Made by a program: the position numbers and the translations under genes. Below are positions 17,438-29,584 of a stretch of 41,736 nucleotides of DNA, in pieces; positions within the stretch are counted from its first letter, which is position 1; the number at the start of each line of letters is the position of its first letter. The DNA comes from a virus. Under the pieces are notes generated by a model. The model was given only the letters and a program-made list of their open reading frames with translations. It was not told where the DNA came from and did no database searches. Where the stretch lies: IMG/VR virus record IMGVR_UViG_3300028025_004180, positions 1-41,736 of that record. One strand, written 5' to 3'.

Positions 17438-17656
17438 ATGAACAAGCACGATGAGTTACCAAGCAAAATTGATTACGAAGCTAAGTATAAGGCTTTAGAG
17501 CAAGCGGTTAAAGATGCGATGGTAATTATTGACCGAAAAGCAACAATAGCCGATACGATAGGTTCAAGAGATAATGACAAAGATTGTATTTATACAAGCG
17601 TAGGGCTAAAGATATGCGTTGACATACTAACCGAAAAAACAGGCATAACCGCCTAA
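17438..17656 (+). CDS. Small hypothetical early protein
   Basis: 72 residues, N-terminal helix rich in Lys/Glu (YEAKYKALEQAVKDAMVIID), followed by DKDCIYTSVGLKICVDILTEKTG. Not recognised. The start is set by the leader motif. It is the last gene before the 312-nt structured non-coding stretch. Confidence 0.65.
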   Translation: MNKHDELPSKIDYEAKYKALEQAVKDAMVIIDRKATIADTIGSRDNDKDCIYTSVGLKICVDILTEKTGITA

Positions 17657-17674
17657 AGTTTTTTCAAGATACAG

Positions 17675-17945
17675 GGGGTAATGGTTACAAAATTGTTTGT
17701 CATTTGGCATATAAATTTCAGCCATTACCCCTTATAATAAAGCCCTTTAGCTATCGAAGGTCTAAGTCCCACTTAGATTATTGATATAGGTAGAAAGGGG
17801 TTGCCAGTATAGCCGTGGCGAAAAAAATATGTGTGGATTGAATGGAGCAACTAGATGTGACCGTGAAAATCAGCGTACATACACAATAGATAGTCTAGTT
17901 AAAGCTATTTGTGCTACCATTCGGCTATACTGGTTAATTTTTATT
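17675..17945 (+). ncRNA. Structured non-coding region with three hairpins
   Basis: The only gene-free stretch above 300 nt (17657-17968). Hairpin 1: GGGGTAATGG (17675-17684) with CCATTACCCC (17722-17731), 10 bp. Hairpin 2: CCCTTT (17743-17748) with AAAGGG (17794-17799), inside it CTATC/GATA and TCTAAG (17761-17766) with CTTAGA (17772-17777) around TCCCA. Hairpin 3: CCAGTATAGCCG (17804-17815) with CGGCTATACTGG (17922-17933), a perfect 12 bp, enclosing AACTAGA (17849-17855) with TCTAGTT (17894-17900) and TGTG/CACA. It ends in a U-rich run (TTAATTTTTATT), terminator-like, 24 nt before the next gene. No ORF is supported. Strand is inferred from the U tract. Confidence 0.65.
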
Positions 17946-17968: not shown

Positions 17969-18322
17969 ATGGAAATTTTAGATTTAGGCTTTAACGACTG
18001 TCAAGAATTGCCTAAAATGCAACAATACAAGTTGCAACTAAAGCGCTCACTTGAAATAGCAAAAGGCATTACAATTAGAGAAACGCCTAATAATGTTGAT
18101 ATGGCAGTTTGCTTTACGCCACAGCAAGCGTTAGCGGCAAAAGAAAAAGAAATTTTGCCATTGTGTTGCACAACTTTTAAGCTACCAAGCACTTTAGAAG
18201 TTGGTACAAATTGCGATAGTTTTATGTCCGCACCCGAACTAGTGGAAATGGCAAAATATTACAAAAGAAACAGGCTTGCCATGCAAAGGATAGCAAAATC
18301 TGAATTGATTGTAAAAAGATAG
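17969..18322 (+). CDS. Hypothetical protein between structured RNAs
   Basis: 117 residues (MEILDLGFNDCQELPKM...). Basic at the C-terminus (YYKRNRLAMQRIAKSELIVKR), with several Cys (CCTT, NCDS) that do not form a clear zinc motif. It is flanked by strong hairpins on both sides and lacks the early leader, so it may be a separate insertion. Function not recognised. Confidence 0.6.
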   Translation: MEILDLGFNDCQELPKMQQYKLQLKRSLEIAKGITIRETPNNVDMAVCFTPQQALAAKEKEILPLCCTTFKLPSTLEVGTNCDSFMSAPELVEMAKYYKRNRLAMQRIAKSELIVKR

Positions 18323-22031: not shown

Positions 22032-22094
22032 TAATTTGGCGGTATCAAAGTAAAGTATTATTTTTACCCCCGACAGCTTATTACGTTACATACT

Positions 22095-22199
22095 GGCTTG
22101 TTGACTGACAAAAACAAAAGCCAATATTTTAATCATATTGAATTAGCCCTTAGTTTCAATTGCCTATTGTCAGTAGGTAGTTGTTTCTAAGGGTTTTTT
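22095..22199 (+). ncRNA. Kissing-loop RNA element, copy A
   Basis: Hairpin P1: GGCTT (22095-22099) with AAGCC (22118-22122), a 2-nt AA bulge on the 3' side, GTT/AAC on top, and the 10-nt loop GACTGACAAA (22103-22112). A 22-nt linker follows. Stem P2: AGCCCTTAG (22145-22153) with CTAAGGGTT (22187-22195), then U residues, terminator-like. Inside P2 sits P3: CCTA (22163-22166), 7-nt loop TTGTCAG (22167-22173), TAGG (22174-22177). CTGACAA of P1 is the exact complement of the whole P3 loop. ATG of a DUF559-type nuclease begins 3 nt after the T run. The word AAGTAAAGT lies upstream (22048) as in copy B. Confidence 0.75.
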
Positions 22200-22202
22200 A
22201 TT

Positions 22203-22673
22203 ATGAGTATTGAAAGAAATAAAATAGTTGCTATTGAGTGCGCCATCAAATTAGCAGAACGCGCAACTTTAGCTGAAAATATTTTACGTGAAGCCCTAAT
22301 CGAGTACAATGTAAATTTTGAATTTCAAAAGCCATTATACTCTAATAAATTTAGGTATGTTGCAGACTTTTTTATAATTGACCAGAGGTTAATAATTGAA
22401 CTTGATGGCAGTAGTCATAATGGCAACAAAAGCCAAGACACGCAACGAAGTGCAGATATTGTAAACCATTACGGGTATAATGTGTTGAGATTTAAAAATA
22501 AGGCGGTTTTTAAGGACGTTAATAATATTATAGCTGAAATCCTTAATTATGTACCAAGGCGTAAAAAGATGCGTTCTAATTTCAGTAAAAAGTCTACCAG
22601 TTGGAAAAGTAATTTGCATAAGCCCGAAAATAAAAAATCAATACCTATGTTCCATACCCTAACCAAAAAGTAG
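22203..22673 (+). CDS. DUF559/Vsr-like putative homing endonuclease
   Basis: 156 residues. TLAENILREALIEYNVNFEFQKPL, then FRYVADFFIIDQRLIIELDGSSH, and VNHYGYNVLRFKN is the DUF559 (Vsr-like PD-(D/E)XK) core: Glu near residue 24, Asp near 60, Glu/Asp in IELDG. The basic C-terminus (RRKKMRSNFSKKSTSWKSN) could bind DNA. Free-standing DUF559 nucleases in phages are often mobile. The gene starts directly behind kissing-loop RNA A and is more A/T-rich than its neighbours, so I infer a mobile cassette RNA plus nuclease. Confidence 0.75.
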   Translation: MSIERNKIVAIECAIKLAERATLAENILREALIEYNVNFEFQKPLYSNKFRYVADFFIIDQRLIIELDGSSHNGNKSQDTQRSADIVNHYGYNVLRFKNKAVFKDVNNIIAEILNYVPRRKKMRSNFSKKSTSWKSNLHKPENKKSIPMFHTLTKK

Positions 22674-23814: not shown

Positions 23815-24003
23815 ATGAAAACAGCAACACCATCAGAATTATGGAACATGGTATGGGACAATGATTACTTTGGCTCAATTAACCACGTTCAGAAAACCAA
23901 TCACGAACTTTTAAACGAGTTACACACTATGCCAGCTTGTACGCTACACTACGTAATAACTGGCGATTGTTTAATGATATTCTCAAAACCTAGCCAGCAA
24001 TGA
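23815..24003 (+). CDS. Small hypothetical protein
   Basis: 62 residues (MKTATPSELWNMVWDNDYFG...). Acidic start, aromatic-rich. Its stop overlaps the pentapeptide gene start (ATGA). Not recognised. Confidence 0.6.
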   Translation: MKTATPSELWNMVWDNDYFGSINHVQKTNHELLNELHTMPACTLHYVITGDCLMIFSKPSQQ

Positions 24004-24719
24004 AAACTAAAATCCAAATCAAATCAATATTCGGCTCAATAAGATTTGAGTACGAAACAGAAAACAATACTATTACTAAGACTTTAGAGCAAGCCGTTAA
24101 AGAAGGTGCAAACTTAGGAGGTGCATACTTGAGAGGTGCAAACTTAGGAGGTGCATACTTGAGAGGTGCAAACTTAGAAGGTGCATACTTAGAAGGTGCA
24201 AACTTGAGAAATGCAAACTTGGTAGGTGCAAACTTAGAAGGTGCAAACTTAGAAGGTGCATACTTAGAAGGTGCAAACTTGAGAAATGCAAACTTGAGAG
24301 GTGCAAACTTAGAAGGTGCATACTTAGAAGGTGCAAACTTGAGAAATGCAAACTTGGTAGGTGCAAACTTAGAAGGTGCAAACTTAGAAGGTGCAAACTT
24401 AGGAGGTGCATACTTGAGAGGTGCAAACTTAGAAGGTGCATACTTAGAAGGTGCAAACTTGAGAAATGCAAACTTGAGAGGTGCAAACTTAGAAGGTGCA
24501 TACTTAGAAGGTGCAATTAAACTACCTATCTATTGCAAATGGTCAATAGGCATAACAGACAATCAAATCCATATTGGTTGCGAAAAGCGCACTATTGAAG
24601 AATGGGACTTGTTTTTTGCATCAACCGAAGTATTAAGTACTGAACGCAACACTCCCGAATTTAAACAAATCAAAGCCGCTTACGAAGGTTATAAGGCTTA
24701 TTATCTCGCACTACAATGA
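24000..24719 (+). CDS. Pentapeptide-repeat protein
   Basis: 239 residues. Residues 36-170 are 27 consecutive pentapeptides A(N/Y)L(E/R/G/V)(G/N), which fold into a right-handed quadrilateral beta helix. The C-terminal about 65 residues (KLPIYCKWSIGITDNQIHIGCEKRTIEEWDLFFASTEV...ERNTPEFKQIKAAYE) match the cap domain of a common phage pentapeptide family. Some pentapeptide proteins mimic DNA and protect gyrase; a role here is unknown. The nucleotide repeats are nearly identical, so the array is recent or still changing. Confidence 0.9.
   Translation: MKTKIQIKSIFGSIRFEYETENNTITKTLEQAVKEGANLGGAYLRGANLGGAYLRGANLEGAYLEGANLRNANLVGANLEGANLEGAYLEGANLRNANLRGANLEGAYLEGANLRNANLVGANLEGANLEGANLGGAYLRGANLEGAYLEGANLRNANLRGANLEGAYLEGAIKLPIYCKWSIGITDNQIHIGCEKRTIEEWDLFFASTEVLSTERNTPEFKQIKAAYEGYKAYYLALQ
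24105..24509 (+). repeat. 27 tandem 15-bp repeats
   Basis: Units of the type GGTGCAAACTTAGAA, GGTGCATACTTAGAA, AATGCAAACTTGAGA and GGTGCAAACTTGGTA follow without interruption. Third codon positions are nearly constant (GCA, CTT-like TTA/TTG excepted), so duplication is recent. Higher-order blocks of 4-5 units recur. Confidence 0.9.
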
Positions 24720-26656: not shown

Positions 26657-26773
26657 ATGAAGTACTTAATTGCACTAACAATAATTGGCTTATGTGTTAT
26701 TGGCTGGCGTGTTGGTAGCTACATAGCAAAACAACAAATTAACCGTATAAAAACTTGCACAAGTGAAAAGTAA
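26657..26773 (+). CDS. 38-residue membrane peptide
   Basis: ATG 26657, 1 nt behind the previous stop. MKYLIALTIIGLCVIGWRVGSYIA is one membrane helix, followed by a basic tail (KQQINRIKTCTSEK). It is the last gene before the second kissing-loop RNA. Function unknown. Confidence 0.5.
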   Translation: MKYLIALTIIGLCVIGWRVGSYIAKQQINRIKTCTSEK

Positions 26774-26804
26774 AGTGTAATTTAGCGGTACGATATTAAA
26801 CTAA

Positions 26805-26908
26805 GGTTGCTGAATGCGAAAAGCAGAACCGTAGTATCACAAACTAACTTATAGCCCTTTTGTTGCCGTAGCCTGTTCGCATCAGGTGAAAGCGCAAAGG
26901 GGCTTTTT
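26805..26908 (+). ncRNA. Kissing-loop RNA element, copy B
   Basis: P1: GGTT (26805-26808) with AACC (26827-26830), a 2-nt AG bulge on the 3' side, GCT/AGC on top, loop GAATGCGAAA (26812-26821). The linker is 22 nt, as in copy A. P2: AGCCCTTTTG (26853-26862) with CAAAGGGGCT (26895-26904), 10 bp with one G-U, then TTTT and TATTTTT. P3 inside P2: CCTG (26872-26875), loop TTCGCAT (26876-26882), CAGG (26883-26886). ATGCGAA of P1 is the exact complement of the P3 loop. The 5' spacer inside P2 is 9 nt in both copies. The GIY-YIG-like gene starts directly behind the T run. AAGTAAAGT is at 26768, as upstream of copy A. Confidence 0.75.
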
Positions 26909-26914
26909 ATTTTT

Positions 26915-27439
26915 ATGGGATTTATACAGCACCCTAGCCAAATTAGGCAACCAGAGTTACTAACTTGGGATAACGAAAATGAATTGATTAAAAGTGATTT
27001 AGGATGTACCCACTACTATACATTAGATGAGTTATTGCTACTAAAATCTTACATTGATAGGGCAATATCATCTATACATCATAAACGTTTTGATTTACAA
27101 AAAGTAAATGAAATTGCTTATATCAAGTCAGTTGAGGCGCAACAAAGATGTAATCCTAAATCACTTAAACCCCAAAAGCCTAGTATAGTATATTTAGCTT
27201 ATGATAGCAATTCAAATGCCTATAAAATTGGTTGCTCTTCCAATGTTAAATCAAGGGCTAAAAGCTTAAAAACTGCTAACCCTTATTTAACTATTACCCA
27301 TATAATAAGTGGTGGTTATGATGCAGAGGCTTATTATCATAATATATTAAGCCCTTATAAGGTAAGAGGGGAATGGTTCAAATTGAGTAGCGATGCAATG
27401 AAACAATTTATTAGGGACTGGGGCTTTAAACCAATATAA
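26915..27439 (+). CDS. T5orf172/GIY-YIG-like putative homing endonuclease
   Basis: 174 residues. The N-terminal 85 residues are helical. The C-terminal part reads SIVYLAYDSNSNAYKIGCSSNVKSRAKSL...DAEAYYHNILSPYKVRGEWFKL, the T5orf172/MUG113 form of the GIY-YIG fold: Y..Y.IG, the Arg of KSRAKSL, and the conserved E and GEWF. This domain occurs in mobile phage nucleases. The gene is A/T-rich compared with neighbours, starts at the end of RNA B, and stops 2 nt before the next gene, as if the RNA-nuclease pair were inserted between genes. Confidence 0.75.
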   Translation: MGFIQHPSQIRQPELLTWDNENELIKSDLGCTHYYTLDELLLLKSYIDRAISSIHHKRFDLQKVNEIAYIKSVEAQQRCNPKSLKPQKPSIVYLAYDSNSNAYKIGCSSNVKSRAKSLKTANPYLTITHIISGGYDAEAYYHNILSPYKVRGEWFKLSSDAMKQFIRDWGFKPI

Positions 27440-27441
27440 AA

Positions 27442-28242
27442 ATGGCAAACGATAATCATTCATTCTCTATTGAGGATGCACAAAAATACGGAGTTGAAAA
27501 GGCACTTATAATTAACCATTTTAGGTTCTTTCTTAAATGCCATCAATCTAATTCAACACATCAATACGATGGCTATACGTGGGTGTACAATACGGCAAAA
27601 TCATTAAATGAATTGATGCCATACCTTAACACTAAAAGTATTAGCCGTTGGTTAATGGAATTGGAGAAAGATGGCGTGTTAATTAGCGGTAATTATAATA
27701 AGCTTGGTATTGATAAAACCAAGTGGTACACAATGAATGAGTTTGCCATTTCTCAAAATGAGGTATCCATTGCTCAAAATAGTACGTCCATTTCTCAAAA
27801 TGAGGTATCGAAGGCTCAAAATGAGGTAACAATACCTATTCATTCTACTATTCAATCTACTATTCAAGAAAAGAAAGAGAGCACCCTGCAATTTCAACCG
27901 ATTGGTTATAAACGAGAATGGGGAATACCTTTTATGCCTGAGTTTAAAGCCAAACTAGAAAAAACACCAGCAGGACAACACGCACTAAATGAGATAGCTG
28001 AACTTTGGGAAACGTGGATTAAGGTACGATACAAAGCACATAACCGTAAATTTAATTCAGACATTAGCGAAGCCCAAGCTTTAAAGACATTTTTAGATAA
28101 ATGCAAAGGGGCTACCCACGCTATTGAAAGCCTAAATAAAATGATTGCAGGCGAATATCTAAACGCATTCACGGTGGATATAGTAAAGCCCGAACCACAA
28201 CAAAAATCAAGTTACGACCGCAAATTTAAAGGCTATGAATAA
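27442..28242 (+). CDS. Replication initiator-like / helicase-loader protein
   Basis: 266 residues. FSIEDAQKYGVEKALIINHFRFFLK and YTWVYNTAKSLNELMPYLNTKSISRWLMELEKDGVLI form a winged-helix domain (residues 1-85) as in phage replisome organisers and DnaD-type proteins. Residues about 100-130 hold four heptapeptide-like repeats of the kind SQNEVS/AQNSTS. The C-terminal part (FLDKCKGATHAIESLNKMIAGEYLNAF) is helical, and SSYDRKFKGYE ends it. The gene overlaps dnaB by 8 nt, which supports a loader or initiator role at the phage origin. Confidence 0.65.
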   Translation: MANDNHSFSIEDAQKYGVEKALIINHFRFFLKCHQSNSTHQYDGYTWVYNTAKSLNELMPYLNTKSISRWLMELEKDGVLISGNYNKLGIDKTKWYTMNEFAISQNEVSIAQNSTSISQNEVSKAQNEVTIPIHSTIQSTIQEKKESTLQFQPIGYKREWGIPFMPEFKAKLEKTPAGQHALNEIAELWETWIKVRYKAHNRKFNSDISEAQALKTFLDKCKGATHAIESLNKMIAGEYLNAFTVDIVKPEPQQKSSYDRKFKGYE

Positions 28243-29584
28243 TCTTTACGAAAAACAAGTTTTGGGCGCAATTGTTCAAAGCGATGAAAGCCTACCCGAC
28301 CTAATGGCAATGGTGCATGAGGATATGTTTAGCACAAGCGAGTACAAAGACATCTTCAGAAGTGCAAAGTACCTTTACGACAGCGGTAGACAGGTAAACA
28401 TTATCAGCATACTTACCCACAACAAAAAGCATGACATAATGAAGCTAACCGATGTTAGCGGTTCAATAGCTTCAACGGCACACGTTATGGATTGTGCTAA
28501 AATACTTGTACAAGAGTTTATAAGGCATGAGATAGTTTCGTTAGCTGCAAAGATTAGCAACATGGCACTAGCACAAGACGATGTGTTTGACATCTTAAAC
28601 TACACAGGCACGACCGCTGGCAACTTAGAGCAAACTATAAGCCCATCAACTATTGATCACGTTAGCACGATTGTAAAGGAGCAAGCTATTAAACGTGAAA
28701 AGGTAGTTGATATGGCAGGCATACCTACTGGCTTTAAAGAACTTGATAAACTTTTAGGGGGGTTTGTTGATGAATGGCTTATAATCGTAGCAGCACGACC
28801 AGGCATGGGTAAAACTTCGATAATGTTATCCTTTGCCTATTACATAGCAAAACAAGGCTATGCGGTTGATATTTATTCAATGGAAATGAGTAAAGGACAA
28901 TTAACCGATAATTTGATAAGTATGCATTGTGGCGTTCCGTTATGGAAGATACAGCGCAACAAATTAGAGCACTACGAACTAGAACAAGTAAAGCAAGCCG
29001 AAGCCTTTATATCAAGCCTACCAATACACATTGATGACCAGCCCCGTATTAAAGGCAGACAGATACGAAGCAGGATAGTGATGGGTAAAAAGAAACGAGA
29101 TACGAAAATAGTAATGGTTGACTATATTCAGATAATGGGCGAGGAAGGAAAAGGCAACCGAGAACAGGAAATAAGCAACATAAGCGGAAACCTAAAAGCC
29201 GCTGCAAAGGAAGCTAAGATACCTATTATCGCATTGGCACAACTAAGTAGGGAAGTAGAGAAACGAGCCGACAGGCGACCGCAATTAAGCGATTTAAGGG
29301 AAAGTGGAGCAATAGAGCAAGATGCAGATATTATTATGTTTCCTTTTCGGGCTTGGTACTACCACACAACGGGCGTAGCAGGGTTTGAATATAACGATAA
29401 GAACGAAAGCACCGAAAATTTAGGTGAGTTGCTAATTGCCAAAAACAGGCATGGTATGGTAGGTGATATTGAGATAGGTTGGGAAGGTAGCAAAAAGCTA
29501 TTTTACGACAAAGAGCAGGATTTTGAACCAAAACCATTATCTAAAATGCAGCGACCGAGTGAAGATGATTTTGACGTATTTTAA
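28235..29584 (+). CDS. dnaB: Replicative DNA helicase, DnaB type
   Basis: 449 residues, full length. The N-terminal domain (MNNLYEKQVLGAIVQSDE...) is the DnaB primase-interacting part. Then AARPGMGKTS (Walker A, about residues 185-194), YSMEMSKGQL, VMVDYIQIMG (Walker B, about 291-300), ALAQLSREVEKR and SGAIEQDADIIMF are in canonical order for the RecA-like ATPase. It unwinds parental DNA at the fork as a hexamer. The very C-terminus DEDDFDVF-like (PSEDDFDVF) is acidic, a possible partner-binding tip. No phage polymerase or primase is visible, so the host replisome is probably recruited. Confidence 0.95.
   Translation: MNNLYEKQVLGAIVQSDESLPDLMAMVHEDMFSTSEYKDIFRSAKYLYDSGRQVNIISILTHNKKHDIMKLTDVSGSIASTAHVMDCAKILVQEFIRHEIVSLAAKISNMALAQDDVFDILNYTGTTAGNLEQTISPSTIDHVSTIVKEQAIKREKVVDMAGIPTGFKELDKLLGGFVDEWLIIVAARPGMGKTSIMLSFAYYIAKQGYAVDIYSMEMSKGQLTDNLISMHCGVPLWKIQRNKLEHYELEQVKQAEAFISSLPIHIDDQPRIKGRQIRSRIVMGKKKRDTKIVMVDYIQIMGEEGKGNREQEISNISGNLKAAAKEAKIPIIALAQLSREVEKRADRRPQLSDLRESGAIEQDADIIMFPFRAWYYHTTGVAGFEYNDKNESTENLGELLIAKNRHGMVGDIEIGWEGSKKLFYDKEQDFEPKPLSKMQRPSEDDFDVF

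Follow-up and report, generated by a model that had tools for sequence, protein, structure and literature searches.

A phage RNA family with covarying, type-specific kissing loops, usually located upstream of replication genes

RNA loops serve as compatibility addresses in some plasmids and in satellite phage P4. Antisense-controlled leaders of replication genes include that of ColE2, and the IncI/ColIb-P9 type is another. In the REx-C module of Pseudomonas plasmids, incompatibility depends on a few nucleotides of a stem-loop (PMC5304414), and the CI RNA of P4 is processed from an untranslated leader transcript and pairs with the seqA and seqC stretches of that transcript (PMC4825925). Here we describe two elements from an uncultured phage, copies A and B, which belong to one RNA family of about 120 bases that is absent from Rfam. 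Their sequences suggest a small exchangeable control device, with loops that recognise their own type.

The window, that is, the whole stretch of DNA that was analysed, is IMG/VR record IMGVR_UViG_3300028025_004180 (41,736 nt), and all sequences used are IMG/VR contigs of related uncultured tailed phages. Copy B lies at 26768-26914 and copy A at about 22048-22200, among the following features.

22035 to 22066, + strand: probable promoter of copy A (TTTG, 20-nt spacer with AAGTAAAGT, TATTTTTA)
22083 to 22202, + strand: copy A leader RNA, a diverged paralogue (42.1 bits, E 5e-5, with a model built without copy A)
22145 to 22153 with 22187 to 22195, + strand: copy A P2 (hairpin z -8.8)
22203 to 22673, + strand: DUF559 (Vsr-like nuclease) gene (PF04480, 1e-19), its ATG 7 nt after copy A P2
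26755 to 26785, + strand: probable promoter of copy B (TTG at 26755-26757, 20-nt spacer, TAATTTAG at 26778-26785)
26768 to 26776, + strand: AAGTAAAGT, in the spacer of the copy B promoter
26790 to 26914, + strand: body of the copy B leader RNA, start approximate (match to model R1 at 26790-26915, 144.8 bits, as a member of that model); orthologues in L002, L003, L004, L013, L014 and L016
26805 to 26830, + strand: copy B P1 hairpin (GGTT 26805-26808 with AACC 26827-26830)
26809, 26810 to 26812 and 26824 to 26826, + strand: upper part of copy B P1 (bulged G, then CTG with CAG)
26814 to 26820, + strand: copy B P1 loop, kissing strand ATGCGAA (kissing helix 100% paired, compensatory changes at 6 of 7 pairs)
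26853 to 26904, + strand: copy B P2 stem (AGCCCTTTTGT 26853-26863 with GCAAAGGGGCT 26894-26904; z -3.8)
26872 to 26875 with 26883 to 26886, + strand: copy B P3 stem (CCTG with CAGG)
26876 to 26882, + strand: copy B P3 loop, kissing strand TTCGCAT
26905 to 26914, + strand: T-rich tail after copy B P2
26915 to 27439, + strand: T5orf172/MUG113 (GIY-YIG-like) cargo gene (PF13455, 6e-12; PF10544, 3e-9), its ATG 10 nt after P2
27442 to 28242, + strand: replication initiator / DnaD-like helicase loader gene (phrog_11233, 3e-28)
28235 to 29584, + strand: DnaB helicase gene (PF03796, 5e-82)

In all copies a linker connects P1 with P2, a terminator-like stem that carries P3 at its top. The P1 loop of copy B, ATGCGAA, is the exact complement of its P3 loop, TTCGCAT, and the same holds in copy A for CTGACAA (22105-22111) and TTGTCAG (22167-22173), the distance from loop start to loop start being 62 nt in each. 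Both have a 22-nt linker, a P2 that starts with AGCCCTT, a spacer of 9 nt, a P3 of 4 bp and a P3 loop of 7 nt. They differ in the P3 stem (CCTG/CAGG in copy B vs CCTA/TAGG in copy A) and in the internal loop between P2 and P3, GCCGTAG facing GAAAGC, which is conserved among B-type copies and absent from copy A. A preliminary description of this DNA had seen in copy B a second element of the same geometry with new loop letters, both loop pairs being perfect, and the coordinates of the two copies together with the homologues described below confirm this. It had further held that the chance of such a double match is small, which is true of a tight descriptor (spacing 62 +/- 3, P2 of at least 9 bp; no match across 200 shuffles) and only moderately so of a loose one, which finds no element in the window other than copies A and B, averages 0.305 matches over 200 dinucleotide shuffles of the window, and reaches two or more matches in 11 of these. 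The chance argument from the two window copies by itself is therefore suggestive, not decisive, and we hold the observation to be real because the homologues settle the question that this argument leaves.

Protein searches with both nuclease gene products as queries found no relatives; related contigs were retrieved with DnaB, with a 92-aa protein encoded upstream of copy B and with a protein encoded upstream of copy A. The copy B locus was found in the orthologue-bearing contigs listed above, the loop descriptor pointed to L016C and L021D, and a pattern blind to the variable loop letters added L030F and L078E while re-finding L016C and L021D. Aligned members were also recovered through synteny or through patterns independent of the variable loop letters. 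A match of the pattern AAGTAAAGT..AGCCCTT in L006 proved to be false, as it lies inside a coding region, and 11 matches of a P1 pattern in genome contigs were discarded, none of them agreeing convincingly with the loop descriptor. The total is 10 copies with 8 loop types, L003 repeating L002 and L014 repeating L013. These types are ATGCGAA (copy B and L002), CTGACAA (copy A), CTCGCAA (L004), (A)CTGCCA (L013, L030), ATCGCAA (L016B), GTCCGAA (L016C), CCGCCAT (L021) and CTCGGAA (L078), and in all 8 the P1 and P3 loops are perfectly complementary over 6-7 bp. The P3 loop has the form TTNNNAN in 6 of the 8; those of L013 and L021 differ and are formed around TGGCRG.

Conservation of the structure was evaluated in an alignment of 8 sequences (A5), the structure of which was drafted from copy B. 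Every cell of the kissing helix (100%) is paired, and 6 of its 7 pairs show a change on both sides; over all helices together 95.7% of cells are paired and compensatory changes occur in 22 of 30 pairs, the paired-cell percentage leaning towards the drafted structure for copy B itself, unlike the compensatory changes in the other sequences. None of 500 shuffles reached any of the five measures used, and the signal was gone once the partners were slid by 1-3 columns; the independent evolutionary changes are fewer than the cell count, because segments recombine. Further support comes from the P2/P3 fold, with z-scores of -3.4 to -8.8 in 8 of 8 tested copies, and from a covariance model of A5, R1, from which both copy A and the loop pairing had been left out, which nevertheless scored copy A at 42.1 bits (E 5e-5). 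Members included in model R1 score 89-150 bits, and L030F, the body of which is as in L013B, scores 110.5 bits. A family with a covarying, type-specific loop helix, as proposed in the preliminary description, is thus borne out, and its P1 requires slight revision. The upper P1, drawn there as GCT/AGC with a 2-nt bulge on the 3' side, is better taken as CTG/CAG with a bulged G on the 5' side, because ACG/CGT (L004), GCG/CGC (L016C) and TTG/CAA (copy A) substitute at those positions, and the loop form GA-N7-A gives way in most copies to A-N7-AAR.

A cmscan of Rfam 15 at the gathering score matched no family at copies A or B or at the homologues, and the element belongs to no named Rfam family. 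Searches with blastn against cultured phages (copies A, B and two homologues) gave chance short matches or none, copy B had no blastn match among plasmids, and model R1 had no match over 396 Bacteroidota genomes in a reduced-sensitivity search that scored 8 candidates per genome. The sole Rfam match in the window is a separate DUF3800-VIII RNA at 17739-17804; membership of the copies in DUF3800-VIII, considered for a similar AAAGCCCTTT stem, was rejected, there being no match. The DUF3800-VIII RNA itself is flanked by a long hairpin, GGGGTAATGG..CCATTACCCC (about 17673-17733), and on its other side by a 130-nt hairpin, CCAGTATAGCCG..CGGCTATACTGG, and the entire segment 17651-17960 folds with z -5.7 and may be a structured RNA larger than the Rfam model. 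Conservation of positions 17651-17744 reaches 94% in L018, and L087 and L078 match over shorter lengths; the segment 17435-18420, holding this RNA and an ORF at 17969-18322 with no Pfam or PHROG match, is missing from L004, where the flanks are joined in a clean presence/absence difference. Elsewhere in the window, 24000-24719 encodes a pentapeptide-repeat-like protein with 15-nt tandem DNA repeats, and L004 and L002 align on either side of 24006 to 24714, not across it.

The consensus of the Bacteroidota sigma-ABfr promoter is TTTG / TAnnTTTG (PMC7366714), and copy B fits it, with TTG and TAATTTAG placed 20 nt apart. Between them lies AAGTAAAGT, which had been counted as part of the RNA and is now seen to sit in the spacer of the probable promoter, outside the RNA body. 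The arrangement TTG-N19/20-TAnnTT.. precedes 8 of the 10 copies, including L078E, which has equal promoter spacing though its upstream sequence is otherwise unrelated. The leader appears to be transcribed from its own predicted promoter, and we infer a Bacteroidota host solely from the form of that promoter. In L004 (4163-4519) the copy A promoter region is identical up to window position 22087 and then gives way to a replacement of about 350 nt that has no long ORF, predicted hairpins (z -2.0) and no Rfam match, and that is possibly another RNA. At the other end of the element, 9 of 10 copies have the ATG of the next gene 7-11 nt past P2, even though these genes are unrelated. Interruptions occur in the T-rich tail of some members (TCTTATTTTT, TCTTGTTTT), so that P2 is possibly a weak terminator or none; a scan for simple terminator patterns had no match, in part since such a scan misses stems that contain an internal loop. 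A separate motif, AACCACTAAACAAACCAAAATG, recurs upstream of many start codons of the window (e.g. 17208, 17419, 20312, 23796) and is probably a shared translation-start leader.

With 6 G-U and 6 A-C cells, a count uninformative on strand, covariation alone cannot tell selection on the RNA from selection on the DNA. This equality, and the usual location near an initiator gene, would suit an element that acts as DNA, for instance a structured single-strand origin or primer site of replication. We regard such an element as scarcely credible in view of the promoter and T-rich tail on one strand, the ATG placement, and the second copy before the DUF559 gene, far from the initiator.

The genes downstream of the RNA tie it to the replication operon more than to nucleases. 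The initiator follows directly in L013, L016C, L021 and L030, the calls in L013 (no library match) and L030 (made without a scan) being based on position and visible C-terminal or N-terminal similarity to other initiators. One cargo gene intervenes in copy B, L004 and L078 (T5orf172) and in L002 (DnaJ-like), and a DnaB or primase/helicase-like gene comes after the initiator; exceptions are L016B, before an unknown gene, and copy A, before the DUF559 nuclease. If the RNA were a component of a mobile cassette with T5orf172 or DUF559, a nuclease-like gene should stand right behind it, and this is so for copies A and B and in L004 and L078. The RNA occurs without a nuclease gene, however, in L002, L013, L016 (both copies), L021 and L030, and among relatives of the copy B locus the orthologous RNA was kept while the nuclease gene was swapped exactly at the ATG. 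These loci largely refute a selfish nuclease cassette, which we now consider very improbable, and the "independent selfish units" of the preliminary description are not upheld either, the nuclease being dispensable and the usual neighbour being the replication initiator operon. The T5orf172 proteins of L004 (7265-7801) and L078 (982-1515) have initiator-like N-termini, that of L078 matching DUF1376 weakly, and look like a GIY-YIG-like domain fused onto an old initiator start. The DnaB gene of L002 (5780-8128) carries a Hint/LAGLIDADG intein insertion, that of L004 (8528-10876) has an enlarged length equal to it, and that of the window is without intein.

Two pairs of copies share the RNA body but not its surroundings. 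L013B and L030F are 97.6% identical in the body, against 38% upstream, 59% in the promoter and 43% downstream, and copy B and L016B are 90.5% identical in the body with flanks at 41%, 69% and 52% (upstream, promoter, downstream). These identities show that phages exchange the body as one unit, its borders lying just past the promoter and at the ATG. Building on the family, structure, covariation, synteny and module exchange established for the leader RNA, we suggest, with slightly more confidence than doubt, that it is a portable 5' leader or attenuator of about 120 nt for replication genes, containing an intramolecular kissing-loop pseudoknot. P1 would be transcribed and folded first, P2 and P3 would fold next, and the emerging P3 loop would kiss the P1 loop, a contact that the length of the 22-nt linker should make feasible within one molecule. 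Kissing would clamp P1 onto the terminator-like stem, whose end is 7-11 nt short of the next start codon, and the folded stem would lower downstream expression by premature termination, by blocking the translation start, or by both. Initiator expression would then be set by whatever shifts the kissing, be it timing, leader RNA concentration, or a protein on the P2-P3 internal loop, a candidate docking site. Attenuation and the direction of its effect on the downstream gene are what we infer from sequence.

Its own probable promoter, its terminator-like end and its exchange as a unit are also what one would expect of a stand-alone phage small RNA that ends at P2 and acts on host or phage targets or forms oligomers, as the phage GOLLD and ROOL RNAs do via kissing loops (PMC12286853), and the compactness of phage genomes could place the gene of such an RNA beside an unrelated ATG. 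A free RNA of this kind would not be expected to recur in a replication context, nor to be followed in 9 of 10 copies by an ATG 7-11 nt past P2, and we consider this reading unlikely.

The specificity of the loops was estimated from computed P1-P3 loop duplex energies, in which self pairs range from -8.3 to -13.7 kcal/mol and non-self pairs are weaker than -6 apart from two combinations between different phages (L004/L016B, -7.7 both ways; L013/L021D, -10.2 and -7.5 kcal/mol). In both genomes with two copies, the window (self -8.3 and -8.5 vs cross -0.1 and -1.4 kcal/mol) and L016 (self -8.3 and -10.0 vs cross -0.3 and -2.0 kcal/mol), the computed cross pairing between resident copies is negligible. 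The earlier proposal that each RNA recognises only itself goes further than these energies, which describe potential pairing and allow some types from different phages to cross-pair. The loops may also change rapidly: copy B and L016B differ at 6 of 14 kissing sites and 6 of 100 remaining compared sites (Fisher p 7e-4), and L002B and L016B show a similar kissing-site excess (p 2e-4), the two tests being non-independent, picked after looking, and drawn from one pair of lineages. Recombination among types could produce such an excess, as could selection favouring new ones.

These observations bring in control in trans, similar to that by P4 CI RNA or plasmid incompatibility RNAs. A short leader released at P2 would accumulate with phage copy number, pair by one of its loops with the matching loop of other nascent leaders and lower the replication gene expression of its own type only, and types would diversify as phages of one type exclude each other. 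The kissing pair would thereby be a rapidly diversifying type address in a same-strand, self-addressed RNA incompatibility or superinfection control that throttles own-type replication operons. This reading would account for the loop variation and for differing copies in one genome; the 8 loop types, the orthogonality of co-resident copies, the kissing-site excess, a module combined with unrelated initiators as in REx-C, and the precedent of P4 CI RNA all speak for it. With both loops on one molecule, however, cis pairing is expected to prevail in an unprocessed RNA, and the excess stems from the post hoc comparison described above. No Pfam integrase was found in 8 contigs, some of them fragments, leaving a role in lysogenic immunity unsupported; this weakens the simple prophage-immunity version, though not control among co-infecting phages. 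We therefore entertain control in trans as a minor possibility, and the cis-acting leader or attenuator described above is the explanation that we prefer.

The family adds to the phage RNAs an unlisted member whose structure is backed by a strongly covarying tertiary (loop-loop) contact, and which usually fronts the genes that start phage DNA replication. Since its loops vary in identity and much of the rest does not, the family allows a direct test of RNA loop types as phage compatibility addresses, and it supplies a small natural collection of kissing-loop pairs that are largely orthogonal.

Among described systems, P4 CI RNA likewise involves the untranslated leader of a replication operon with complementary stretches on the same strand, and premature termination, known for P4, is proposed for the phage leader. 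The latter differs in being a two-hairpin kissing loop with no homology seen (no Rfam match), its contigs have no integrase found, and its action in trans is hypothetical. REx-C and other antisense-controlled replication leaders such as that of ColE2 resemble it as exchangeable modules upstream of non-homologous initiators, with specificity in a few loop nucleotides, but their regulator is an antisense RNA from the opposite strand, whereas here both partners lie on one strand, and in phages. The DUF3800 motifs are also small structured RNAs of phage genomes with a CCCT..GGGG stem; copies A and B match no DUF3800 model, and that of DUF3800-VIII is without kissing loops. GOLLD and ROOL, finally, are phage RNAs with covarying kissing loops as well, but they match nothing here, are hundreds of nucleotides long, often lie near tRNA islands and form multimeric cages, whereas the RNA described here is a leader of about 120 bases.
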